64,000 bases of DNA from Nostocales cyanobacterium (GTDB taxonomy: Bacteria > Cyanobacteriota > Cyanobacteriia > Cyanobacteriales > Nostocaceae), in contig RDXV01000003.1 in the NCBI GenBank assembly GCA_004292695.1, positions 1 to 64,000 of the forward strand, written 5' to 3'. Each line of letters begins with the position of its first letter. The first letter of the stretch is position 1. A program made the translations under genes and the position numbers. Below the pieces are notes generated by a model that ran no database searches, was not told where the DNA came from, and saw only the letters and a list, made by a program, of their open reading frames with translations. Below are positions 4,389-18,250 of the stretch, piece after piece.

Positions 4389-4658
4389 TTAAAATACCTG
4401 AATCCACTCTTTGATAGTATACTCTGTCCAAATACCGTTTTGCCAGTATGGATCAGCTTCTACTAACTGACGAACGGTATTTTCGTCTTCTGCTTCGTAA
4501 ATTCCAAAAACTTTGGTAACGTCTTTGGTTGGACCCAAAGTAATTAAAATTCCTGCTTCTTTTTGTTTTGTGAGTCCTTCTAAGTGTGCTTGACGGTGGG
4601 GTTCACGTTTGGTTAGCACGTCTTCACAGTAACTCCCCCACATTACATATTTTGGCAT
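4389..4658 (-). CDS. YciI-like protein
   Basis: An 89-residue protein with the YCII fold pattern: start MPKYVMWG, a central REPHRQAHLEGL segment whose His is the usual conserved polar residue, then GILITLGP and a C-terminal DPYWQNGIWTEYTIKEW segment. Full length for the family. YciI-type proteins are small dimeric ferredoxin-like alpha/beta barrels, some of which cleave or dehalogenate small molecules; the substrate here is unknown. Confidence 0.8.
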   Translation of the reverse strand: MPKYVMWGSYCEDVLTKREPHRQAHLEGLTKQKEAGILITLGPTKDVTKVFGIYEAEDENTVRQLVEADPYWQNGIWTEYTIKEWIQVF

Positions 4659-5436: not shown

Positions 5437-5976
5437 ATGTCTTTAACCATTAAAGAACTAGAAGAAATACAGTTAGCATATCCAGATTATCGTACAGAAT
5501 TAGTAGATGGGAGCATCATTATTATGAGTCCTTCAGGTTATGAACCAGAAGAAGTAGGTACAGAGTTTGCATCTTTGTTAAGAAACTGGGTTAGACCTCG
5601 TAAATTAGGCCGTGTAGTGGGTTCTAGTGCGGGTTTTAAATTACCAAATTCTGATTTACGAGCGCCGGATGTTTCCTTTGTGCGTGCGGAAAGATTGAAA
5701 ATATCAACAGAAGATTATGCGGAATTAGTTCCTGACTTGGTGGTGGAAGTAAAATCTAAAACTGATTCTATAGATAAACTGAGAGAGAAGATTCAAGAAT
5801 TTATGAGTTTAGGTTCACAGGTGGGAATTTTAATTAATCCTAAAACTAGAATTTTAGAAGTTTCTCAAAATGGGGAAACAGTGATTTTTAAAGATGGTGA
5901 TATTTTAACACTTCCTGATTTATTACCTGGTTTTGAGGTGGTAATTTCGGAAATTTGGCCGCCAGTTTTTGAGTAG
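5437..5976 (+). CDS. Uma2 family (DUF820) PD-(D/E)XK nuclease-like protein
   Basis: 179 residues of the Uma2/DUF820 fold, a restriction-endonuclease-like domain greatly expanded in cyanobacteria. Visible core: YRTELVDGSIIIMSPSG with the early acidic residues, LRAPDVSF carrying the catalytic-type Asp, and LVPDLVVEVKSKTDS, the E-x-K strand. AGGAG stands 7 bases before the ATG. One of four Uma2 genes in this window (others near 18.7, 48.2 and 54.5 kb). The cellular role of the family is not established. Confidence 0.85.
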   Translation: MSLTIKELEEIQLAYPDYRTELVDGSIIIMSPSGYEPEEVGTEFASLLRNWVRPRKLGRVVGSSAGFKLPNSDLRAPDVSFVRAERLKISTEDYAELVPDLVVEVKSKTDSIDKLREKIQEFMSLGSQVGILINPKTRILEVSQNGETVIFKDGDILTLPDLLPGFEVVISEIWPPVFE

Positions 5977-6101: not shown

Positions 6102-7595
6102 TCAGAAGTTCGTGAGTAATCTGGTTTTTCTCAGAATCAATCTTAATACACTCTCCTCCTCAGCAATAATATCCGCAACCACTTCCATTCCTGGTTGCAG
6201 AGGATATTGTTGTAAATCTTTTTGCAAGAATAGCTTTTCTGGTTCAATTGTCACCTCATAATAACCTGCTGCTGTGATATTATCTTGAGGTAAAATTGCA
6301 TCTGCGGTAATAGACCTAACAGCACCTGTTAAAATACCATAATCTGGATAAGGATAGGTAGAAAATCGCATTTTTACCTTTCCTTTTTGGCAGTTTACCA
6401 CTTCTTGAGCATCACAAACAAAAACTTTACTAATATCAGCAGCAGCAACCCGCGCTTTAATTACTAATGGGGTATGACTCGGAGCAATTTGGGCGATCGC
6501 ACTACCAGAATTTACTACTTGTCCAGGATTTCGCAAATCTAATTTTAAAATATTACCTGTTGCCGTTGCACGAATTACAGTTTTTTGGATTTGTGTTAAA
6601 ACTTGTTTGAGTTCTTTTTGGGTATTATTTATCTGATCTTGAATTTCTATTTGACGTTGAACTAAACTTTCTTTCTCCTGCTGTAACCGAGCTAAATTAG
6701 TTTTACCATTAGCACGTTCAGTAGCTACTTTTTCTTCAGCAATAGAAATTACTGCATTACTAGGATTTAAAAATGCAGCAGACTTTTGACTTCTAGCAAT
6801 AGCAGATGTTACAGCTTCCTGTTTTTGCTGAACCACTTTTTTTTGACTTGCTAATATAGCTTTTTGAGATTCTACAACCTGTGCTTGTTGTGTTGCTGCT
6901 AGTTGTACTTCTTCTAATTGATTTTGAGAAATTGAACCAGATTTGGCTATATCTTCATAGCGTAATCGTTTAACTATTGCAGATTTTAGTCCCGCTTCTG
7001 CACTTTCTAAATTAGCCTGAATTGACTGCAATACAGATTTTTCTTTGAGTAGTTCATTTTGGGCAATTTTGATATTAGCTTTTGCTTCTTCCCATTCACT
7101 ACTAACAGCTATTTTATTATCTTGATAATCTCTTTGTGTACGCTCAAGTTCAGCTAAAGCAGATATAACAAGGCGTTGATGTCTTTCTGTTTCTGTATTT
7201 ATTTGCCTATCTAAAGCCTGAATTTGAGCTTCTAATTGCTCCATTTGTAATTGAGATTTTTGCATATTTACTTGCAGTTGTTGTTTTTGGTTTTGTAATT
7301 GGGTATCATCAATTATTGCTAGAACATCCCCTTTTTTGACTATTTGATTTTCTTGAACAGAGATTTTTTTAACAGTTCCTTCTATGGCAGGTTGCACTAT
7401 CCGCACTTCACCTATGGGACGTACAATAGCAGATGCTTTTACAGTTTGCTGATATTTAGTAAAGGCTGAAATAGTTACAGCCGCACCAACAACACCTACT
7501 AAAAATAGTCCTCCTAATCTTGTAAAAATACTGATATTAGGTAAGTATTCATCGGATTTTGCTGTTGGTAAAAAAGTGGGAATTGTTTGATTCAT
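6102..7595 (-). CDS. HlyD-family membrane fusion protein of the lanthipeptide exporter
   Basis: 497 residues. One transmembrane segment near the N-terminus (LGGLFLVGVVGAAVTISAF), a lipoyl/biotinyl-like half motif (VKKISVQENQIVKKGDVLA), a long Gln/Glu-rich coiled coil (about 95-330), then the second half motif and the beta-barrel domain (ATGNILKLDLRNPGQVVNSG onward). This is the periplasmic adaptor of type I or peptide exporters. It is the last gene of the lanthipeptide cluster, 235 bases after the precursor gene on the same strand, and would link the C39-ABC exporter to an outer-membrane channel. No TolC is present in the window. Confidence 0.9.
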   Translation of the reverse strand: MNQTIPTFLPTAKSDEYLPNISIFTRLGGLFLVGVVGAAVTISAFTKYQQTVKASAIVRPIGEVRIVQPAIEGTVKKISVQENQIVKKGDVLAIIDDTQLQNQKQQLQVNMQKSQLQMEQLEAQIQALDRQINTETERHQRLVISALAELERTQRDYQDNKIAVSSEWEEAKANIKIAQNELLKEKSVLQSIQANLESAEAGLKSAIVKRLRYEDIAKSGSISQNQLEEVQLAATQQAQVVESQKAILASQKKVVQQKQEAVTSAIARSQKSAAFLNPSNAVISIAEEKVATERANGKTNLARLQQEKESLVQRQIEIQDQINNTQKELKQVLTQIQKTVIRATATGNILKLDLRNPGQVVNSGSAIAQIAPSHTPLVIKARVAAADISKVFVCDAQEVVNCQKGKVKMRFSTYPYPDYGILTGAVRSITADAILPQDNITAAGYYEVTIEPEKLFLQKDLQQYPLQPGMEVVADIIAEEESVLRLILRKTRLLTNF

Positions 7596-7830: not shown

Positions 7831-8055
7831 TTAGATACTGATTTCTTCAAAACCAATGGGTTTTTTACAAGACCAAATAGGTGTGTGGAAAGGGTCTCCA
7901 CAGGTTGTACAACCACCGGAAACAGAAGACATATCTTCATCATCGAGTTCCACTAAACCGGCGGGGTTTACAGGTAATTGTTCCCGTTGTTCCGCACTCA
8001 AACTATGACGATATTCCTCGTCTTTCCAAGCACGAACGATATCTACATTAGACAT
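7831..8055 (-). CDS. Lanthipeptide precursor, mersacidin/lichenicidin-type leader
   Basis: 74 residues. The leader (SNVDIVRAWKDEEYR, PVNPAG, ELDDEDMSSVSGG) matches the mersacidin/lichenicidin-type class II lantibiotic leader, ending in a double glycine at 47-48. Predicted core: residues 49-74, 26 aa, with Cys at 49, 52 and 63, Thr at 50, 51 and 58, and Ser at 62 and 73. Thr58 and Cys63 are well spaced for a (methyl)lanthionine ring; Cys49 at the very first core position is unusual. The core also has a His and several acidic residues. It lies between the ABC exporter and HlyD genes with its own upstream Fur-like site. No second precursor was found. Confidence 0.85.
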   Translation of the reverse strand: MSNVDIVRAWKDEEYRHSLSAEQREQLPVNPAGLVELDDEDMSSVSGGCTTCGDPFHTPIWSCKKPIGFEEISI

Positions 8056-8156: not shown

Positions 8157-8175
8157 TAAAATAATAATCATTCTC
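8157..8175. promoter_or_regulatory. Putative Fur box upstream of the lanthipeptide precursor
   Basis: The 19-mer TAAAATAATAATCATTCTC matches the classical Fur consensus GATAATGATAATCATTATC at 15 of 19 positions. It sits about 100 bases upstream of the precursor ATG (8055, minus strand). With the stronger box at 13806 it suggests two iron-controlled promoters in this cluster. Match counted by eye; no binding data. Confidence 0.5.
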
Positions 8176-8240
8176 ATTTTAAAAGTCAAGTGTTAAACCG
8201 TATAATTTCGTAATCGTGAAATTCCTCTGTTTTTGTGACT

Positions 8241-10385
8241 CTAAGGAATTAAAAAGTCTAAATGCTCACCTGGAATATCCAGTAATTCTGCTGGAGTACC
8301 TTGTAATTTTAATTTCCCAGCATCTAACAATACAATCCAATCTGCGCGTTTAATAACTCTTGGACGATGACTAATTAAAACAGTCGTTTTTCCCTGACGA
8401 TAAGTGAGTAATTTATCTAAAACTAAACTTTCACTCACAGGGTCTAAACCGGCGGTAGATTCATCTAAAATCAAGATGGGAGGATTAGTAACAATACCTC
8501 TAGCTATAGCTAATCTTTGTTTTTGTCCACCGGAAAGATTTGCACCAAATTCACCTAAAATAGTTTGATATTTTTCTGGTAATTTACTAATAAAAGTATC
8601 CGCATCTGCAACTTGACAAGCGGTGACTATTTGCTCAAAAGTAACTTGAGGACAACCAAGAGATAGGTTATCTAAAATAGAACGACTCCAAAAATGTGCA
8701 TCTTGAGGAACTAAAACTATTTGTTGACGTAAGCAACTAGGATCAATATCTGATAAATTGTAGTGATGAATGCGAATATTCCCAGACTGAGGATAATATA
8801 AACTCGCAATTAATTTTGCTAAGGTACTTTTACCACATCCAGATTTACCAATAACTGCAATTACTTTTCCACAGGGTAAAGTCAGGGAGAAATCCTTTAA
8901 TAAATCAACTCTTCCAGGATGATGAAAATTGATATCTGTACAAATAATATCCGCATTTTCAGGAATATTCACAAAGGGTTTTTGTGTAAATTGTGAAAAT
9001 TCAGGAGTTGAATTAATGACTTCATTTAATCTTTCCGTTGCAGCTTGAGCGCGGGTAAATTCTGTCAAGAACCGAACACAGGTATTAACGAAATTGAGAA
9101 TATTTGTATTTAAACTATTAAAAGCTAATAATTGACCTATGGAAATTTCCCGATTAATGACTAAAATACTACCATACCAAAGCAGAATAATTCCCCCAGC
9201 AGTGGATACCCAACTAGAAAAAATGGTATTTGTTAAAACAATTTGCACAGTGCGAAACATTAAATTTGATTGTCTTCCATAACGAGCTTGAAATTCTGGC
9301 CATAACTCTGGTGCAGCGTTGGTAGTTTTGACAACTAATGCACCTTTAAAGGTTTCTACTAACACACCTTGATTTTCAGCAACTACACCTAAAACTGTGC
9401 GGATTTTTTGCTGTAAATTGGGAAAAGATACGATGGTAGAAATGGTCATTAACACTGCAATAAATATTGATGCTAAAGTCAGTTGGGGACTATAAAATAA
9501 CATCAAAATTAAGGATGTAAGAGCAATTAATAACTGACTGGGTAAAGTTATTCCTACTTGAGAAACCAATTGATTAATAGTCTGAATATCTCTTAATCTA
9601 CTGACTACTTCACCACTGCGACGAGATTCATAATAAGATAATGGTAAACGTAAAATATTACTGGTAAATTCCCAAACTAAATCTAATTCTAAACGATGAG
9701 CAAAATGAGAGACTAAATTACCTTGTACCCATTGTAAACAACTACTAATTAAACTCATGGTTAATATTCCCAGAGCAATACCTGTTAATAATTGGGTGTC
9801 TCCACGTATTAAAACATCATCAGTGAGAATTTGAATTAAAAATGGTGATAATAGGGAAAGTAAACCAACAACAAAATTTATTAGTAAAGCTTCTGTGAGA
9901 ACAAAGCGATAGTTAAAAAGACGTTGGATGAGTTGTTTAAAACCTCCTACCAATTCTCTATCATCTGGTTGTGCTAAAAAATCTGGACGGGGTTCTAATA
10001 GCAACATGACGCTATTTTTCCAACCAGTTAATAAAGCTTCTTTGGTTAAATATCTAATTCCTACTAAGGGGTCTGCAATGATATATTTTTGCTGTTTCTT
10101 TCCATATAATACTGTCCAATGATTCCCTTTCCAGTGAATAATTGCTGGGAGGGGAATTTGTTGTTTATCTACTAATTCTAAAGCAGCTTTTACACCACGT
10201 GCATTAAATCCTAATACCTGCGCTCCTTGTTTTAGATTTAGTAATGTTGTTCCTAGTTGTCCTGTTCCTGTAGCTGCACGTATCCTGTTAATTGTGAATA
10301 TTTGTCCATAATATTTAGATATGGTTGCTAAACAAGCAGGACCACAATCTTCTTCGTTATGTTGTAGGACTATTGGGTATTTCAT
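8241..10385 (-). CDS. C39 peptidase-containing ABC exporter (LanT type) for the lanthipeptide
   Basis: Domains in order: C39 bacteriocin-processing peptidase (about 1-130), six-helix ABC membrane domain, ATPase. From the ATG start, catalytic Cys14 lies in EEDCGPACLA, His89 in GNHWTVLYG and Asp105 in ADP. The ATPase shows Walker A GKSGCGKST, signature LSGGQKQR and Walker B ILILDES. The enzyme should cut the precursor after Gly-Gly and export the mature peptide. I prefer ATG at 10385; a TTG six codons upstream also fits. Transcribed with LanM (upstream) and the precursor and HlyD genes (downstream). Confidence 0.93.
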   Translation of the reverse strand: MKYPIVLQHNEEDCGPACLATISKYYGQIFTINRIRAATGTGQLGTTLLNLKQGAQVLGFNARGVKAALELVDKQQIPLPAIIHWKGNHWTVLYGKKQQKYIIADPLVGIRYLTKEALLTGWKNSVMLLLEPRPDFLAQPDDRELVGGFKQLIQRLFNYRFVLTEALLINFVVGLLSLLSPFLIQILTDDVLIRGDTQLLTGIALGILTMSLISSCLQWVQGNLVSHFAHRLELDLVWEFTSNILRLPLSYYESRRSGEVVSRLRDIQTINQLVSQVGITLPSQLLIALTSLILMLFYSPQLTLASIFIAVLMTISTIVSFPNLQQKIRTVLGVVAENQGVLVETFKGALVVKTTNAAPELWPEFQARYGRQSNLMFRTVQIVLTNTIFSSWVSTAGGIILLWYGSILVINREISIGQLLAFNSLNTNILNFVNTCVRFLTEFTRAQAATERLNEVINSTPEFSQFTQKPFVNIPENADIICTDINFHHPGRVDLLKDFSLTLPCGKVIAVIGKSGCGKSTLAKLIASLYYPQSGNIRIHHYNLSDIDPSCLRQQIVLVPQDAHFWSRSILDNLSLGCPQVTFEQIVTACQVADADTFISKLPEKYQTILGEFGANLSGGQKQRLAIARGIVTNPPILILDESTAGLDPVSESLVLDKLLTYRQGKTTVLISHRPRVIKRADWIVLLDAGKLKLQGTPAELLDIPGEHLDFLIP

Positions 10386-10546
10386 TAGCTCAAGTAAAGA
10401 CAAAAAACGTAAAGATTTAGATAAATATTAATCTAATAATTCAGGATACAGAATACAGGATTGAGAATTAATTATAGTTTTCGAGTTATTCTTGACAATT
10501 GATTTGAAAACATACTTGTATAGCTCATTTCTACAAACAAATATTC

Positions 10547-10573: not shown

Positions 10574-13500
10574 CTAAAATAATATTTTGGGTGGTTCAAG
10601 TAGGAGGATGGAGGGTATTTTTTCGGGGTAAGCTAAACGTAATAGTCCGTAACCAATACCAGCTAAACCTGTCATTAATCCTGGGGTTTCTATACCTAAT
10701 GGTACACCACAAAGGGGGTTATTTGTTTGCAGATCATTTAAAATTTGGGAGGCGATTTTTGCGGTTTCTCTTTCTAGTTCTGGGTAATCTAATTTGGTTT
10801 TTGCTGTTATTAATAAGTCAATGTTTCCTAAGTCTCCATGACAAAGACAATGGTTATTTCCAAATCCTTGTTTGATGGTGGTTGCAATGGCAGTTTCGGT
10901 TTCTTTATACATTAATTGATTTAGTATATCTACGGGAATGTCTAACCTTCCTAACCCAATTCCAGGCGCTCCACTACACCATGCTGTCATGCAACTATTT
11001 TTGACATTAGTTTGCCGTAAATCTAACCAGTTATTCTCTTGGGGTTCAAAATGGCTGCGTTCATAGTTGATAGCTTGTATAGCTGCGGTCTCAAATTCAT
11101 GATTTCCGGTAATTACAGCTAGTTTAGAGAGCGCCCAAGCAAAACCAGCCGCCCCATGTGCAAAGCCGGTTAATGGTTGGTTTTCTCCTGCTGGTGATTG
11201 CCAACCGATACCAGTATTTTGGTTTTGTGCTTGGGTAAGAAGATGTTGACCACATTGTATAGCAATATCCAAAATATATTGATTTGGGAAAATGTTGTAA
11301 AAGCTCAATAAGCTACCAATACAACCAGCAGCACCCGCAATTATATCTAATTGTTGATCTTGTTCTATTAAGGGTGAAAGTTCTTCTACTAAAATGTAAG
11401 CGTCGGCAATTAAATCTGGTTCTCTCCATAAAATTCCTAAATGGGTAAAGGTGTAAATTATTCCTCCCCAACCACTAAAAGCACCTATAAATTTGATTGA
11501 GGTTGTTGTTAGTTTGTGTTTTAAAGTTTTAATTGCTGCTTTGGCTAAATTTGTGTAAGTTGGATTTTGGGTGATTTGTCCTATATAAGCTAAAAATAAT
11601 GCTATTCCAGGAATACCTGCGTATAGGTCTGTACCTAGAGGTGCTAATGTCCATTGATGACTGGGGGTAAGAGTTAAACCCATCCAGTTAATAAATTCAC
11701 TATTTTGATAGGATAGTATTTGTAGTCTGTTAGCAATTTTACAGGCTGTTGCTAATAATTCACTCTGTAAATTTTGGTTTTCAACTTTGTTTATATTAGT
11801 TTTTTGCCCTAATTTAATTTTATGAATATCAGCATTAGCACTTATTTGTAATGTCGCTAAGGATGTTTTTATAAACCATGTTTGTTTTTCTAAGTCTTCT
11901 TGATTCAGTTTAGTTAGACGCTGATGTACTAATTCTATTCCTGATTGATGAAAAAATTTAGGGATGTGTAATTTTGTGTTTTGATGGAATAAGTCGCGGG
12001 AATGGGGATAGGTTGTAAACAGGGGAATATCACTTTTCCATAGTGCTTTCTGTTCTGCGGTGATAATTTGACTGAGTTGCGGACGTTGTTTTGCTTCTAT
12101 CCAAAGTTTATCAAATAGGCAATCGCGTTCTAAGGCATCTCTCAAAAAATCAGGATGATAACTTTCCCGCAATAATAAAGCATATACTCTACTGGGTCGC
12201 ATCACTACTCTTACTTTGTCTTCTGCAAATTGCGTTAAAATTTCTCTCAATTCTTGCTGATGTTCTAATATAATCTCATAAATTCTTTTAAATCCATCAA
12301 TTACAAACTCTGTATATTCCCAAACATTGATTTCCTGTTGATTTAATTTAGGTCTATTTTGACTACCCACCATTACAGTCTGTTGACGTTCTATCTTCAT
12401 GGTGTCTGTCCCTACCTGTGATAGTTTTGGGACTTTATCCGGTGCTAACTGTCCTCCAGCACCTCCTAAACCACTCATGTCAATTCCGGCAGCTTGCGTA
12501 TTTCCCCAGACTATTTGCGGTAACAAACCAACGCGCAATACTGAATCTGCGATCATCTCCCGATCTAAATTATCTGCTGCTGTGGTTTGAGAATCACTAT
12601 GAGGATGAAATAAAGATTCTAAATCTATTAATATCGGATGTTCTCCTGCTGCAATCAAGTTTTCAAAGTGAAAGTCTGTGGCTTCTAAGATGTACAATAA
12701 TCCTAGATAACCCCCTTGACGCTGGTAAAATCTGTTAATTTCTTCTTGGTAAAAACAAGGATGAGAACTGACAAATTCTACCCAACCGTAATTATGAAGA
12801 TTGAGAATATTTAAAGTCTGAAAATTTGGTTTAAAGCCTTTTGCATTTAACCATGACAGCAGTTCTTGAAAATGCTCATCTACTGCTAAGGATCTGGGTT
12901 TATAAACTAACTGCCAACCGCTAGAAAATTGAAGTATAATAACTGACTTACCGTTATTATGGCTGTCACCTTCTCCCCGCTTGACTTTGATGAGTTTTCC
13001 AGGGTTTACAGGTGGTTGAAATTGGTAACAAATTTTTTCCCAATCTTGATGAAGATGCTGAATAAATTCTAAGCTATTTTCTACCCAGCGATTAATTGTT
13101 TCTAAGACTTGTCTAGCTAAAACTGGGTATTCTTCCCATAATGCTAGTTGTACTTGGGGATTTTGTAACCGTTGTATAAAACTACTAAACCGCTCTTGGG
13201 AATTTTCCCCGGTTAATACACCTTGCAATCTGGCTACATTCAGTTCTAATATTAAGGTAGAGTTGAGCATTAACAGTAGATTTTCTGGTAATCCCTCTAA
13301 TAAAACATCCTGAATATCCCGTAAATTATCAGGCAGATTTTGTATATTATATATCTTATTTAATCCTGTTTTTAATTTAATCATACCTTGAGCAAGGAAA
13401 GGTGCGATCGCATTCAAAAACCCAAAACAAGGATGTGTAGATAAACTAGAACCAGATAACAGCGTTGCAATATCTTGATCATCTAAATTTTTGTAAGCCT

Positions 13501-13765
13501 GATCAATTTCTTTTACCCACGTCAAGGATACAGGTGCTACAGTTTGTCCTAAAATTCTGCAAAACTGCTCTTCACTAATTCCCTCAGTAGCTAGTTTTTG
13601 AGCAAATAAGTCTGTACTCTTCCAAATTGAATCTGATTTCCACCGTCTTAATCTTTTTAACCCCAATTCAGTATCATACACCACTTCCTCAGAAACACCC
13701 GCAATTCGTTCCTGTAACAACATAGCGCGAAACCAAGCAGAATCTTGACTGTTAACTTTTTTCAT
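10574..13765 (-). CDS. lanM: Class II lanthipeptide synthetase LanM
   Basis: About 1063 residues, normal LanM length. The N-terminal two thirds are the DUF4135 dehydratase, with kinase-like catalytic segments DFHFENLIAAG and PILIDLESLFHP. The C-terminal LanC-like cyclase has the zinc ligands Cys940 (WCSGAPGIG) and Cys985-His986 (CLCHGDLG), counted from the ATG. This is the standard Cys-Cys-His zinc site, not the three-Cys site of promiscuous ProcM-type enzymes. It dehydrates Ser/Thr of the precursor core and closes thioether rings. Start: ATG at 13765 has GTGAG seven bases upstream; GTG at 13777 is possible. First gene of the cluster; its promoter overlaps a strong Fur-like box. Confidence 0.95.
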   Translation of the reverse strand: MKKVNSQDSAWFRAMLLQERIAGVSEEVVYDTELGLKRLRRWKSDSIWKSTDLFAQKLATEGISEEQFCRILGQTVAPVSLTWVKEIDQAYKNLDDQDIATLLSGSSLSTHPCFGFLNAIAPFLAQGMIKLKTGLNKIYNIQNLPDNLRDIQDVLLEGLPENLLLMLNSTLILELNVARLQGVLTGENSQERFSSFIQRLQNPQVQLALWEEYPVLARQVLETINRWVENSLEFIQHLHQDWEKICYQFQPPVNPGKLIKVKRGEGDSHNNGKSVIILQFSSGWQLVYKPRSLAVDEHFQELLSWLNAKGFKPNFQTLNILNLHNYGWVEFVSSHPCFYQEEINRFYQRQGGYLGLLYILEATDFHFENLIAAGEHPILIDLESLFHPHSDSQTTAADNLDREMIADSVLRVGLLPQIVWGNTQAAGIDMSGLGGAGGQLAPDKVPKLSQVGTDTMKIERQQTVMVGSQNRPKLNQQEINVWEYTEFVIDGFKRIYEIILEHQQELREILTQFAEDKVRVVMRPSRVYALLLRESYHPDFLRDALERDCLFDKLWIEAKQRPQLSQIITAEQKALWKSDIPLFTTYPHSRDLFHQNTKLHIPKFFHQSGIELVHQRLTKLNQEDLEKQTWFIKTSLATLQISANADIHKIKLGQKTNINKVENQNLQSELLATACKIANRLQILSYQNSEFINWMGLTLTPSHQWTLAPLGTDLYAGIPGIALFLAYIGQITQNPTYTNLAKAAIKTLKHKLTTTSIKFIGAFSGWGGIIYTFTHLGILWREPDLIADAYILVEELSPLIEQDQQLDIIAGAAGCIGSLLSFYNIFPNQYILDIAIQCGQHLLTQAQNQNTGIGWQSPAGENQPLTGFAHGAAGFAWALSKLAVITGNHEFETAAIQAINYERSHFEPQENNWLDLRQTNVKNSCMTAWCSGAPGIGLGRLDIPVDILNQLMYKETETAIATTIKQGFGNNHCLCHGDLGNIDLLITAKTKLDYPELERETAKIASQILNDLQTNNPLCGVPLGIETPGLMTGLAGIGYGLLRLAYPEKIPSILLLEPPKILF

Positions 13766-13805
13766 CTTTTTACTCACTCGGTGTTTACACTATTGCTCTG
13801 ACTAT

Positions 13806-13824
13806 GATAATAATTATCATTATC
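13806..13824. promoter_or_regulatory. Fur box in the LanM / iron-porin divergent promoter
   Basis: GATAATAATTATCATTATC matches the 19-base Fur consensus at 17 of 19 positions. It lies 41 bases before the LanM ATG (minus strand) and 52 before the porin ATG (plus strand), so one Fur-type repressor could control both. An iron porin on one side makes iron control of the divergent region credible. Sequence match only. Confidence 0.75.
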
Positions 13825-13875
13825 GTGATACTTGTGTAAAGCAAATCCAAATTAGGGTGTATCGGTGAGGAAGTG

Positions 13876-15573
13876 ATGTTAAAAGTTTTATCAGGTTTAC
13901 TCTTAGCAACCCCGGTAGTTTTTATATCTCCGGTAGCGTGGGGGAGTGAAATAGAAGAAAATAATGATGTAGCACAAGTCAACTCTGTATCTCAGTTATC
14001 TGATGTACAACCCACAGACTGGGCTTTTAGTGCGTTACAATCTTTAGTAGAAAGGTATGGTTGTGTAGCAGGGTATCCCAACGGTACATACCGAGGAAAC
14101 CGCGCTATGACTCGTTATGAATTTGCTGCTGGTTTAAATGCTTGTTTAGATAGAGTAAATGAGCTAATAGCCACAGCTACAGTAGATGCATTTCAAAAAG
14201 AAGATTTAGCCACTTTACAACGGCTACAAGAAGAATTTAACGCCGAATTAGCAACTTTACGCGGGCGGGTGGATGCTGTAGAAAACCGCACCGAAATGTT
14301 AGAAAGTCAACAATTTTCCACCACAACAAAACTTTCCGGTGAAGCGATATTTGCGGTGACAGATGTATTGAGTGGAGATAGTGATCCTTTTGGGGTGGAT
14401 GTACCGCGCAACAGCACTATTTTTGCTAACAGAGTGCGGCTGAATTTAATCAGTAGTTTTACAGGACAAGATGAGCTAAAAATTAGACTCCAAGCTGGTA
14501 GCACACCACACCCACAAAGGGCGGGGGGTTTTCGCTATGGTGCAGATCCAATTTTAGCCCAGTTCAACAGTAGACAAACAACACCAGAAGGTTCACAAAC
14601 CTTTAACCACGAGTTTCCAGATCAAGCAGGTAGTGTAGAAATAGGTACGGTTAGTTATAAATTTCCTGTTGGTAAAAAATTACGAGCAACTGTATTTGCC
14701 AACAGGGGAGAACACGTAGATTATTTACCCAATGTATTTAGTACCTTTAATGATGAAGATGGCGGTTCTGGTTCACTTTCCACCTTTGCCCAATATAGCC
14801 CAATTTATCGGATTGTTTCCCAAGGTGCGGGTTTAGGGTTGAATTATGAGTTGAGTTCGGGGATTAACTTAACTTTAGGTTATTTAGCTCCCAATGCCGA
14901 AAGTCCAGAAAATTTAACTCCTGATAGCGGTAATGGAACGACAGCAGGAGGTTTATTTGGTGGTCGCTACTCAGCTTTGGCACAATTAAGTATTAAACCT
15001 AGTAGAAATTTAGCTTTTGGCTTAACTTATGTCAACGGTTATACAGCAGGAACACCCACTTTCCTCAATGATGTGGGAACAATTTCCGCAAATTCACCGA
15101 GTTTAATTTCCGATAATTCCCGTAGAGAAATTAACGCTTATGGTGTAGCTGGTTTGTGGGAAGTTTCGCCGAAATTTACCGTTAATGGTTGGTTTATGTA
15201 TGCTAACCAACAAGGTAGATCCGCAGGAACAAATAATGAGAGTGCAGATGTTTATAGTTATGCGATCGCTCTAGGTTTTCCTGATTTGGGTAAAGAAGGT
15301 AATTTAGGAGGTATTGTAGTAGGTGTTCCTCCTTATGCTACTCGTTCTGGTATCGCTTCACCTGCTTTTAGAGCATTTTTCGGTGGTGGAACTGACTTAA
15401 TTAGCACTATTCCTAATAGTGCTACACCGTTGCATTTGGAAGCTTTTTATAAGTACAAATTAAATGATCATATTTCCATTACCCCTGGTGTAATTTGGCT
15501 AGTTGCTCCCAACCAAACCAGTAATAATCCTGATGTAGTTATTGGTACTGTGCGGACTACTTTCACCTTTTAA
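13876..15573 (+). CDS. SLH-OprB type porin (iron-uptake porin family)
   Basis: 565 residues. A hydrophobic N-terminal stretch (LSGLLLATPVVFISPVAWG) is the signal peptide. An SLH domain follows (VQPTDWAFSALQSLVERYG, YPNGTYRGNRAMTRYEFA), then a coiled-coil segment (LQRLQEEFNAELATLRGR) and an OprB-type beta-barrel ending in the outer-membrane signature TTFTF. ATG at 13876 with GAGGA four bases upstream is preferred over GTG at 13873. This family is the major cyanobacterial outer-membrane porin group, and members are implicated in iron uptake. The Fur box 52 bases upstream supports that role. A strong terminator follows. Confidence 0.9.
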   Translation: MLKVLSGLLLATPVVFISPVAWGSEIEENNDVAQVNSVSQLSDVQPTDWAFSALQSLVERYGCVAGYPNGTYRGNRAMTRYEFAAGLNACLDRVNELIATATVDAFQKEDLATLQRLQEEFNAELATLRGRVDAVENRTEMLESQQFSTTTKLSGEAIFAVTDVLSGDSDPFGVDVPRNSTIFANRVRLNLISSFTGQDELKIRLQAGSTPHPQRAGGFRYGADPILAQFNSRQTTPEGSQTFNHEFPDQAGSVEIGTVSYKFPVGKKLRATVFANRGEHVDYLPNVFSTFNDEDGGSGSLSTFAQYSPIYRIVSQGAGLGLNYELSSGINLTLGYLAPNAESPENLTPDSGNGTTAGGLFGGRYSALAQLSIKPSRNLAFGLTYVNGYTAGTPTFLNDVGTISANSPSLISDNSRREINAYGVAGLWEVSPKFTVNGWFMYANQQGRSAGTNNESADVYSYAIALGFPDLGKEGNLGGIVVGVPPYATRSGIASPAFRAFFGGGTDLISTIPNSATPLHLEAFYKYKLNDHISITPGVIWLVAPNQTSNNPDVVIGTVRTTFTF

Positions 15574-15609
15574 GAGAAAATTGGCGTTGAATAAATTAAT
15601 ATCAAAACC

Positions 15610-15652
15610 GCGACTGCGGCCTTGCGCTACACCCACCGCAGATCGTTTTTTT
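15610..15652 (+). terminator. Rho-independent terminator of the porin gene
   Basis: CGACTGCGG pairs with CCGCAG-A-TCG (one bulged A) across a 16-base loop, followed directly by seven T. It lies 37 bases after the porin stop and is the clearest terminator in this part of the window. Confidence 0.75.
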
Positions 15653-15765
15653 AAATTTTTAATTGGTTATTTATTTTTTCGTGGAGGCAGGGAACAGGGA
15701 ATAAAATGGTGTGTACTTCATTAGACTGGGAAACGCTGTAACGGAAATTGGCAATTAGTAAATAA

Positions 15766-15812
15766 TATCCAAATATTACCAATTACCAATTAACCAATTA
15801 CCGATTACCAAA
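15766..15812. repeat. Short tandem repeat, ATTACCA unit
   Basis: Degenerate 7-bp repeat (ATTACCA, with AATTACC variants) between the porin and the convergent pheT gene, reaching almost to the pheT stop codon. Typical Nostocales STRR. Confidence 0.75.
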
Positions 15813-15814
15813 TT

Positions 15815-18250
15815 TTAACTTCTCAAACTCACACCAAATTTTTCTACTAATGCTTCCCGGACTTTATTATGCACCGGTTCAACATCGTTATCTGTGAGAG
15901 TGCGATCGCCAGCACGATAAACTAAACGAAAAGCTAAACTTCTCTGTCCTGTGGGTACATTTTCACCGCGATATTCGTCAAAAACTTCTACAGATTCTAA
16001 CAAACCTTTACCAGTTTTAGTAATCACTTTTTCGATTTCAGAAACTGTTAAATTCACAGGTGCAAAGAAAGCAATATCTCGATCACTAGCGGGATAGGTA
16101 GAATACGCTTTAAATTTAGGGATAATTAAATCATCATTATCCAACGCATTTAACAAAGTATCCAAACTAATTTGGAATACATAAACCGCATCGGGTAAAT
16201 CTTTTTCTTTTCTTAATTGCGGATGAACTTGACCAAAACTTCCGAGTCTATTACCACCCAACCATAGGGAAGCAGTTCTTCCGGGATGTAAACGCGGATC
16301 TCTATTTTCTGGTTGAAATTCTATCTGTAAACCAAACTTACCAAAGACATTTTCTAATATACCTTTAGCTTCAAACCATGTCATGGGTTGTTCTTTTCCA
16401 CCCCTTGACCATTTACCAACACTAGCATCACCACCCATGATACCAGCTAACATTTCCGCTTCTTCTAAACCTTCTTCTTCTTGCCAGAAAATGCGCCCAA
16501 TTTCAAAACCGTTTAATGCACCATTTCCCTGTTCTAGATTATATTGAAAAGCATCAATTAATCCAGAGATTAAATCAGTTCTTAAAGCTGAATATTCTGC
16601 CAATAATGGGTTACTTAAAACAATTTGTCTGTCTTCACCTGGTTTAACTAAAGAATATTGCATTAATTCTGTTAAACCTTCAGCACGCAGATATGATCTA
16701 ATTTTTCTCAGCAGTTCTTGATCTAAAGGTAAATAACCAGGTTCGGTTTTTTCTGGTAAAGTATCCACGAAGTTATCATAACCATAAAGACGGGCAATTT
16801 CTTCAATTAAATCTATTTCCCGTTCTAAATCTCGGTAACGATAAGGTGGTACTTTAACTGTCCAAGTCCGGTTATTATGATCAGTTAATTCACATCCTAA
16901 AGCAGAAAGAATTCTCTCTACATCTGCTGCTTGTAATTCTCCTGTTTCTACTCCTAAATCTACGGGACCTAAGAAGTCGTTAATTCTATCTAATCTGAGT
17001 AAAATTGAATGTGTCCAGGTAGTAGAATCAGGACGATAATCAGCAATTTTCTGGTCTAAAATTACCCCATTTGCTAATTCTTGAATTAGGGATAAAGCCC
17101 GGTTACAAGCTGTTTCTAATTCTGCCCGATTTACTCCTCTTTCATATCTCCCAGATGATTCACTTCTTAACCCTGCACTGCGGGAAGAACGACGAATAGG
17201 AACAGAATCAAATAATGCAGCTTCTAAAACTAAACTGGTTGTGTTTTCATCAACTTCTGTTTCTTCTCCACCCATGACTCCTGCTAAAGCTACGGGTTTA
17301 TTGTTAGCAGTAATTAATAAATTTTGGGTGGATAAATTTCGGGTTTGTCCATCTAAGGTTTTGAGTTTTTCCCCAGTTTCAGCAAAGCGGACACCAATGG
17401 TTAATTTATCATCACCAGCAACAGATTTTAACTTGGTTTGATCAAATGCGTGTAGCGGTTGTCCCCATTCTAATAATACATAGTTGGTTATATCTACCAC
17501 ATTATTAATAGGACGTATTCCCGCAGCATTTAATTTTTGTTGCAACCATTGAGGAGAAGGGGCAATTTTTACCTGATCAATTACAGTTCCAATATAAGCT
17601 GGACAGGCTTGATTTTCGGAAATCTTTAAACTTAAATTCCCTGTTTCTTGGTGAATTGTTATTGCTGGTGGTTCAGGAATGGATAATTTTCCGCCGGTTA
17701 AAGCTGCAACTTCCCGCGCAATACCCACCATAGATAAAGCATCTGCACGGTTAGCGGTTGCGGTGACATCTAAAATGACATCATCTAAACCTAAAAATGG
17801 ACGGACATCAGTACCCACTGTGAGGTTTTCTTGGGTGAAGATATGAATACCATCTACATCGGTGGGTAAACCTAGTTCTTTTAGGGAACATATCATTCCG
17901 TTGGAGGGTACACCTCTAAGTTTTGTAGGTTTAATTTTTAAGTCAATGTTGGGTAAGTAAGTACCTTTGGTTGCTACTGGTACATAGATGTCTGCGCGAA
18001 CGTTGGATGCACCACAGACGATATTTAATGTTTCTTCTCCACCTACATCTACTGTACAGACGCTGAGTTTATCTGCGTTGGGGTGCTGTTCCCGTTGTAG
18101 AACTTTACCAATCACAACGCCATCCGCCCAAGTGCGCCGATCTTCTATATCTTCGACTTCAAACCCTGCCATTGTCAAGGTTTCGGCTAGTTCTTCTGGA
18201 GTTTGGTTAATTTCTACGAGTTCCCGTAACCAATTGAAAGAGATACGCAT
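15815..18250 (-). CDS. pheT: Phenylalanine--tRNA ligase beta subunit
   Basis: 811 residues, the normal bacterial length. The N-terminal tRNA-binding EMAP/OB domain ([20 protein letters not shown]), B3/B4 editing domain (including [21 protein letters not shown]), B5 domain, catalytic-like core ([20 protein letters not shown] region) and C-terminal ferredoxin-fold anticodon-binding domain ([16 protein letters not shown]) are in the expected order. With PheS, encoded elsewhere, it charges tRNA-Phe. Stands alone in this region. Confidence 0.97.

Follow-up and report, generated by a model that had tools for sequence, protein, structure and literature searches.

A class II lanthipeptide cluster with Zur-type boxes in a Nostocales cyanobacterium and its possible role in zinc scavenging

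Introduction

What becomes of a cysteine that occupies the very first position of a lanthipeptide core and has no Ser or Thr on its N-terminal side? This question is raised by a precursor gene, lanA, of a Nostocales cyanobacterium. It is located in the window, i.e. the whole stretch of 64,000 nucleotides (contig RDXV01000003.1) that was analysed here. According to the original prediction, any ring involving this residue (Cys49) must close onto a C-terminal Thr, otherwise the Cys stays free and could bind metal; this ring logic is sound. A Cys at core position 1 is by itself not new, since ring A of mersacidin joins Cys1 to Thr2.

A class II lanthipeptide cluster with a single precursor

The coordinates predicted for the precursor are exact, and translation places the gene on the minus strand, with a leader and a core reading MSNVDIVRAWKDEEYRHSLSAEQREQLPVNPAGLVELDDEDMSSVSGG and CTTCGDPFHTPIWSCKKPIGFEEISI, respectively (Table 1). 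The 26 residues that follow GG48 include, as announced, Cys49, Cys52 and Cys63, Thr50, Thr51 and Thr58, Ser62 and Ser73, as well as His57 and three acidic residues (Asp54, Glu70 and Glu71). The NCBIfam model of the mersacidin/lichenicidin leader (TIGR03898) matches LanA residues 5-48 with an E-value of 1.5e-21 (76.1 bits for a cut-off of 23.5) and stops at the GG. Since this match extends to the GG and genes encoding LanT, LanM and HlyD lie alongside, the ORF is a real class II lanthipeptide precursor gene. The own genome (5.39 Mb in 324 contigs) contains one TIGR03898 gene above the cut-off and a single LanC-like gene, the lanM of the window cluster. The cluster holds one lanA, which bears out its description as a single-core system.

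On the minus strand, the genes are ordered lanM, lanT, lanA and hlyD, and a porin gene diverges from lanM. LanT carries a Peptidase_C39 domain (118.7 bits) together with an ABC domain. LanM matches TIGR03897 (DUF4135 plus LanC) with 1063.7 bits, and its WCSG and CHG motifs align with the WCHG and CHG motifs of LicM2 (6ST5). ProcM-type LanMs have a CCG motif, whereas the window LanM has CHG, and no Nif11 leader model is found among the LanA matches; the system is therefore not of the prochlorosin/ProcM type, and ProcM-like promiscuity was rejected because LanM carries CHG and there is only one precursor. The model matched by the porin, NF033921, bears the name 'iron uptake porin'. Among the annotated genes of the window, none was recognised as conferring immunity. 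Two other genes of the window, encoding a YCII-related protein (4389-4658, minus strand) and a Uma2-type putative endonuclease (5437-5976, plus strand), are apparently unrelated to the lanthipeptide cluster.

Table 1. Features of the lanthipeptide cluster (positions in the window)
Feature	Position	Strand	Basis
HlyD-type periplasmic adaptor, predicted to act in export	6102..7595	minus	Domain match; in 33/33 group clusters
lanA, precursor of 74 residues	7831..8055	minus	TIGR03898; only one above cut-off in own genome
Core CTTCGDPFHTPIWSCKKPIGFEEISI	7834..7911	minus	Translation; His57, Thr58 and Cys63 invariant in 16-row alignment
Leader, residues 1-48, ending with GG	7912..8055	minus	TIGR03898 match, residues 5-48
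lanA promoter-like site TTGACT-17-TATTAT, overlapped by the Zur-type box	8161..8189	minus	Consensus scan
Zur-type box TGAGAATGATTATTA, 12/14 to TGATAATNATTATCA, at -121 of lanA	8162..8176	minus	Motif scan
lanT, Peptidase_C39 ABC exporter, predicted GG cleavage and export	8241..10403	minus	Domain matches
lanM, class II synthetase, zinc ligands intact (WCSG, CHG)	10574..13777	minus	TIGR03897
Perfect Zur-type palindrome TGATAATAATTATCA between lanM and porin gene	13805..13819	unstranded	Genome motif scan
SLH + OprB outer-membrane porin, divergent from lanM	13873..15573	plus	NF033921, 520.6 bits

Related clusters

A related precursor is present in 51 of the 217 genomes of the family. Ten precursors of a shared core type, the own one and nine others, constitute group A. 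The own core and seven others start with CTTCG[DN]P[LF]HT, L010 starts with CTMCGNPNHT, and L008 reads SSLHTGCGNPLHT, i.e. His-Thr-Gly-Cys in place of Cys-Thr-Thr/Met-Cys. A sister group of seven precursors (group B) has HTKTC[KRN]HCC, which follows [DE]PT in six of them. His57, Thr58 and Cys63 of the core are invariant in the A/B alignment, whose 16 rows omit L016, a near-copy within group B. Searches with an A+B profile gave matches in 42 of 388 genomes of the order and in nine of 386 genomes of the phylum, all nine belonging to the order. Sixteen further precursors (L100-L115) make up group C, with cores such as CTPCGNPLHT..., CTTCTGGTGFTHTCNWSC..., C[ST]CGSxxCSMPWHH..., EALEHPHTPTKCTHCC and similar. 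The three groups form the zinc-box group of 33 clusters, in all of which the arrangement recurs.

Groups A and B were delimited from the similarity of their cores and leaders, their own promoters having been viewed, before the control promoters were scored. Group C was obtained with the A+B profile and kept because its lanA promoters score at least 12, so that its lanA-box rate results from construction. The 20 control loci were hand-picked among the other precursors of the family search.

Zur-type boxes at lanA, lanM and the porin gene

As scoring motif, we used the AT-rich, palindromic 7-1-7 consensus TGATAATNATTATCA, which we take to be that of cyanobacterial Zur boxes. Besides the box located upstream from lanA, which lies over a -10 element, a perfect palindrome separates lanM from the porin gene (Table 1) and extends over the -10 elements of the two divergent promoter-like sites found by promoter scan. 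The 5.39 Mb of the genome contain two perfect copies of the motif, this one and another that lies within a long ORF (L061, 1501-1515, i.e. own C307:2994-3008). When up to two mismatches are allowed, 194 sites are found genome-wide versus 209 for the reversed control; as there is no excess, the case rests on the position of the boxes and on their conservation. The one-mismatch sites L062, L063, L067-L070 and L072-L074 have no recognised zinc gene beside them and look like chance occurrences.

On the lanA side, 15 of the 17 promoters of groups A and B carry a box of at least 12/14, which none of the 47 remaining TIGR03898 promoters of the family does (p 8.5e-13; 36 of 5100 shuffles reach at least 12). 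On the lanM side, such a box occurs in 30 of the 31 clusters that could be scored and in none of the 19 controls (p 6.6e-13; 13 of 3200 shuffles). Both p values ignore relatedness among genomes. The lanM-side test left unscored L086 and the control L147, whose LanM start is unusable, as well as L129 (73 bp upstream, score 8). On the LanM tree, the zinc-box label changes twice versus 15.5 times in shuffles; therefore, few independent origins of zinc-box clusters are shown.

Elsewhere in the own genome, the motif lies upstream from thrS2 (by 11 bp) and from hemB2 (by 27 bp), both of which belong to an operon that also holds COG0523, folE and hisI genes. This operon (L094 on own C36, 8471-15214, ordered hemB2 - FAD-type ORF - thrS2 - COG0523 - folE - hisI, with two 13/14 boxes) is likely a Zur operon. 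The motif is also located 76 bp upstream from an operon of TonB receptor, DUF7676, Peripla_BP_2 and FecCD genes on own contig C114. The DUF7676 protein encoded there (L093, 6946-7815, minus strand), in this boxed operon of TonB receptor, substrate-binding protein and FecCD genes, recurs in L086 and L088. In Anabaena, the reported Zur targets include hemB2, thrS2, folE2, COG0523-type genes, znuABC and TonB receptors (PMC6103462). Furthermore, the Zur sites of Anabaena are reported to extend over -10 boxes, and their consensus fits a 15-bp motif located upstream from zepA in cyanobacteria (PMC10957091).

From these sequences, we infer with strong confidence that the boxes very probably mediate zinc control by Zur. 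A FUR paralogue other than Zur, for example Fur, may be the regulator instead: the own genome has four FUR-family genes, and the boxes of this family resemble each other. However, the motif precedes thrS2 and hemB2 and is unlike the FurA consensus of Anabaena, AAATAAATTCTCAATAAAT (PMC4005646), which argues against Fur. Among the seven porins studied in Anabaena PCC 7120, none is reported to be under Zur control (PMC9705863), and a Zur-boxed porin would therefore be new there.

Core residues and rings

All 33 group cores contain a His within their first 26 residues versus 7 of 53 other cores, the counts for His plus Cys are the same (33/33 and 7/53), and Cys1 is found in 23 of 33 versus 1 of 53; for group C this comparison holds partly by construction, the lanM-box test having used a different promoter. 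Four rows without a readable core were omitted from these counts, and the 53 others include L119 and L120 (box 11/14). Among the intact close relatives, conservation of Cys1 held only in part: the residue is present in nine of ten, own included, and is replaced in L008 (HTGC for CTTC), and in the sister group all seven group B precursors lack it.

In all ten group A cores, a Thr is located two residues ahead of the second Cys, and the residue between them is Thr, Met or Gly. These Thr and Cys positions, conserved in relatives, favour Thr50->Cys52 and Thr58->Cys63 as the needed rings, which would leave Cys49 spare and free. Moreover, the wider evidence favours binding of metal by a free Cys49, since the operators are of zinc type, every group core contains a His and zinc-uptake genes lie beside several relatives.

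A Cys1-Thr2 ring is chemically possible, as mersacidin ring A illustrates, and in mersacidin it needs Asp-5 and Glu-3 of the leader (PMC9486960). Cys1-Thr2 is present in LanA, but leader positions -5 and -3 are Ser and Ser, so the exact mersacidin ring A is not predicted. As a full explanation, this ring was rejected because both leader acids are absent and Cys1 is dispensable in L008.

In the unmodified core, the C-x2-C-x4-H-x5-C spacing resembles that of zinc knuckles. This likeness may be lost upon modification, as the rings would consume two of the three Cys. The sulfur of lanthionine binds metals poorly; therefore, two rings would leave few ligands in the window core.

LanM proteins without zinc ligands

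Among LanMs of at least 850 aa, the zinc ligands of the cyclase are lost in 15 of 30 group proteins versus 0 of 18 controls (L076, L082, L086, L144 and L147, in which no LanM ORF reaches this length, were left aside). In the ligand-less LanMs (L083, L127-L131, L133-L136 and L138-L142), the first Cys is replaced by Ser in 14 proteins and by Asn in one, and the His that follows the second Cys by Asn in 13 and by Ser in two. The resulting motifs are WS[HY]G or WNYG and CNG, CSG or GNG. The LanC domain is conserved in other respects: the GFSHG motif is kept, and the LANC_like match amounts to 217 bits in L139. Cys1 cores accompany all 15 losses. Zinc-ligand mutants of the lacticin 481 synthetase reportedly retain dehydration and are impaired in cyclisation.

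Zur-controlled zinc-free paralogues, such as HemB2, have been described (PMC2770081). Outside class III, the zinc ligands are called strictly conserved (PMC10604976), and zinc-free LanM-like proteins, namely LanMbC (CcaM) and CA_C0082, are known (PMC10676384, PMC10301443). Like class III LanKC, these two have a LanC-like domain devoid of zinc ligands, as does half of the group's long LanMs. However, the proteins found here are class II LanMs belonging to zinc-box clusters, and CA_C0082 also lacks dehydratase residues. Given the zinc-free HemB2 paralogues and the lacticin 481 synthetase mutants, the ligand-less branch may spare zinc or leave thiols free.

Neighbourhoods of the related clusters

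Within 10 kb of lanA, hlyD is found in 33 of 33 clusters versus 11 of 20 controls. In the same range, a porin gene was detected in 21 of the 33 clusters, a zinc gene (ZnuA/B/C, COG0523, FolE, HemB2 or ThrS2) in seven (p 0.037), and a zinc or TonB/Fec uptake gene in ten (p 0.008), whereas none of the 20 controls showed any of these genes. These counts are lower bounds, some stretches being short where a contig ends, and are uncorrected for relatedness. The znu genes (znuA/B/C) adjoin L137, L086 and L090, and an uptake operon of TonB/Fec type, related to that on own contig C114, adjoins L085, L086 and L088. Around the own lanA, the same 10-kb range revealed no zinc-uptake gene. The uptake substrate-binding protein shows only a mild enrichment, as it is present in 13 of 17 genomes with the cluster versus 78 of 191 (p 0.009, when three genomes whose status is unknown are entered as negative).

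In the group B clusters L085, L087, L088, L089 and L091, a secreted protein ending with VPEP or similar replaces the porin. Genes of such secreted-looking VPEP/VPDK proteins (L085, 11694-12752 plus; L087, 8635-9729, L089, 9173-10174, and L091, 1686-2702 minus) diverge from lanM across a zinc-type box in these sister clusters, and the L085 copy has no Pfam match.

Possible function of the peptide

Our preferred reading, held with slightly more belief than doubt, is that of a class II lanthipeptide cluster induced by zinc starvation, whose product would most likely be a secreted, zinc-binding, zincophore-like peptide. Binding of zinc by the LanA peptide appears rather probable, and zinc uptake as its purpose may just as well be right as wrong. 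When zinc is sufficient, Zur bound to the two palindromes would block lanM-lanT, lanA-hlyD and the divergent porin gene, a step that the sequence strongly suggests. When zinc falls, LanA would be made and LanM would dehydrate its Ser and Thr residues, then close at least Thr50-Cys52 (or Thr51-Cys52) and Thr58-Cys63, as conservation and the intact cyclase indicate. Judging from their domains, LanT would cut after the GG and export the core, assisted by HlyD and a TolC-type channel. In the mature peptide, the N-terminal Cys49 (through its thiolate and alpha-amine), His57 and the acidic residues might then bind Zn(II) outside the cell. The zinc complex might return through the co-regulated porin or through the TonB receptor/ABC system preceded by a Zur box.

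The product could also be an antimicrobial, Zur or another FUR protein timing its production under zinc starvation; the peptide would kill or inhibit competitors, and the porin would replace an outer-membrane route or give immunity. There are reasons to consider this: Fur-controlled microcins act against competitors under iron shortage, the leader family is named for antibiotics and the export machinery is standard. Furthermore, another cyanobacterial class II lanthipeptide is both antibacterial and antifungal (PMC13060382). However, a His in 33/33 cores and Cys1 in 23/33 are not obviously needed for killing, clusters lie beside znuABC, COG0523 and TonB-FecBCD systems, and the annotated genes of the window include no recognised immunity gene, all of which makes an antimicrobial unlikely, albeit the foremost alternative.

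Alternatively, the peptide may be regulated by zinc and act at home, as an envelope-held zinc carrier, buffer or signal rather than as a diffusible zincophore. The operator common to the lanthipeptide genes and the porin gene would fit such a role, and the VPEP secreted protein found in the porin's place in sister clusters recalls the Zur-controlled ZepA (PMC10957091). Yet a dedicated GG-cleaving exporter and HlyD point beyond the periplasm, and we regard this role as distinctly improbable. Finally, the product might be a common lantibiotic of the mersacidin type, in which a reverse ring joins Cys1 to Thr2, and the boxes might be due to chance or to Fur/PerR. The precedent of mersacidin ring A and a Thr2 directly after Cys1 speak for this reading, but it is very improbable given the box statistics, the missing Asp-5 and Glu-3 and the box also found before thrS2 and hemB2.

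Comparison with known systems

The window system shares with mersacidin the TIGR03898 leader family, LanM and LanT, and a Cys1 followed by Thr2. It differs by the lack of the GDMEAA segment and of Asp-5/Glu-3, by an invariant His-Thr and by its Zur-type operators, and the two cores otherwise show no resemblance. The nostolysamides of Nostoc punctiforme (NpuA/NpuM) are likewise cyanobacterial class II lanthipeptides, but NpuM belongs to the ProcM clade, their cluster has an acyltransferase, and the available part of the source gives them no metal role (PMC13060382). ZepA of Anabaena is, as proposed for the LanA product, a secreted, Zur-controlled cyanobacterial product with His-based zinc handling (PMC10957091). 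However, ZepA is a protein that carries a Sec signal peptide and terminates in a PEP-CTERM segment, whereas the LanA product would be a modified peptide. The zincophores staphylopine and pseudopaline are secreted zinc carriers, zincophores being Zur-controlled in some cases and taken up by TonB receptors in Gram-negatives (PMC10957091). These two are small opine-type molecules, whereas the candidate zincophore proposed here would be a ribosomal peptide.

Our search of an open-access library, with subscription papers outside its scope, found no paper that combines a lanthipeptide with Zur regulation and zinc, no title or opening of an abstract linking these subjects among the matches listed, and no zinc-scavenging role for lanthipeptides. 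The type of gene is known, but descriptions of its zinc control, of the His/Cys core rule and of the branch of zinc-free LanMs appear to be lacking in the literature searched, and there is a good chance that the function is new. More tentatively, and with somewhat more doubt than conviction, we suggest that a family of lanthipeptide zincophores, Zur-controlled and rich in His and Cys, may exist in filamentous and some other cyanobacteria. One branch of it would have a zinc-free synthetase (WCxG->WS[HY]G, CHG->CNG), which would spare zinc as HemB2-type enzymes do or free thiol ligands.

Lanthipeptides have been studied mainly as antibiotics. If the zincophore proposal is true, the class would gain a nutritional role and a ribosomal route to zincophores would be added, which would hint at how some cyanobacteria meet zinc scarcity. 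Nature would also provide, in the ligand-less branch, a way to test whether the cyclase of a class II LanM can work without zinc. The operator and the His/Cys core can be viewed as a function-linked rule for sorting cyanobacterial lanthipeptide clusters.

Decayed and divergent loci

Two loci were placed outside the 33 clusters. The first, L084 (G007), is a decayed cluster in which lanA, lanM and hlyD are all truncated, and its lanA box is still kept. The second, L143 (G324), has the core HPTVRPTTCSCCG and a lanA box of only 11/14; its LanM (13517-16759, minus strand) is also devoid of zinc ligands (WSHG, AQG) and lies outside the groups. In addition, the LanM of G071 is broken into two ORFs (L082, 8625-11813), and the porin gene of G201 is interrupted by an ORF with DUF4277 (L079, 5832-7502, minus strand).
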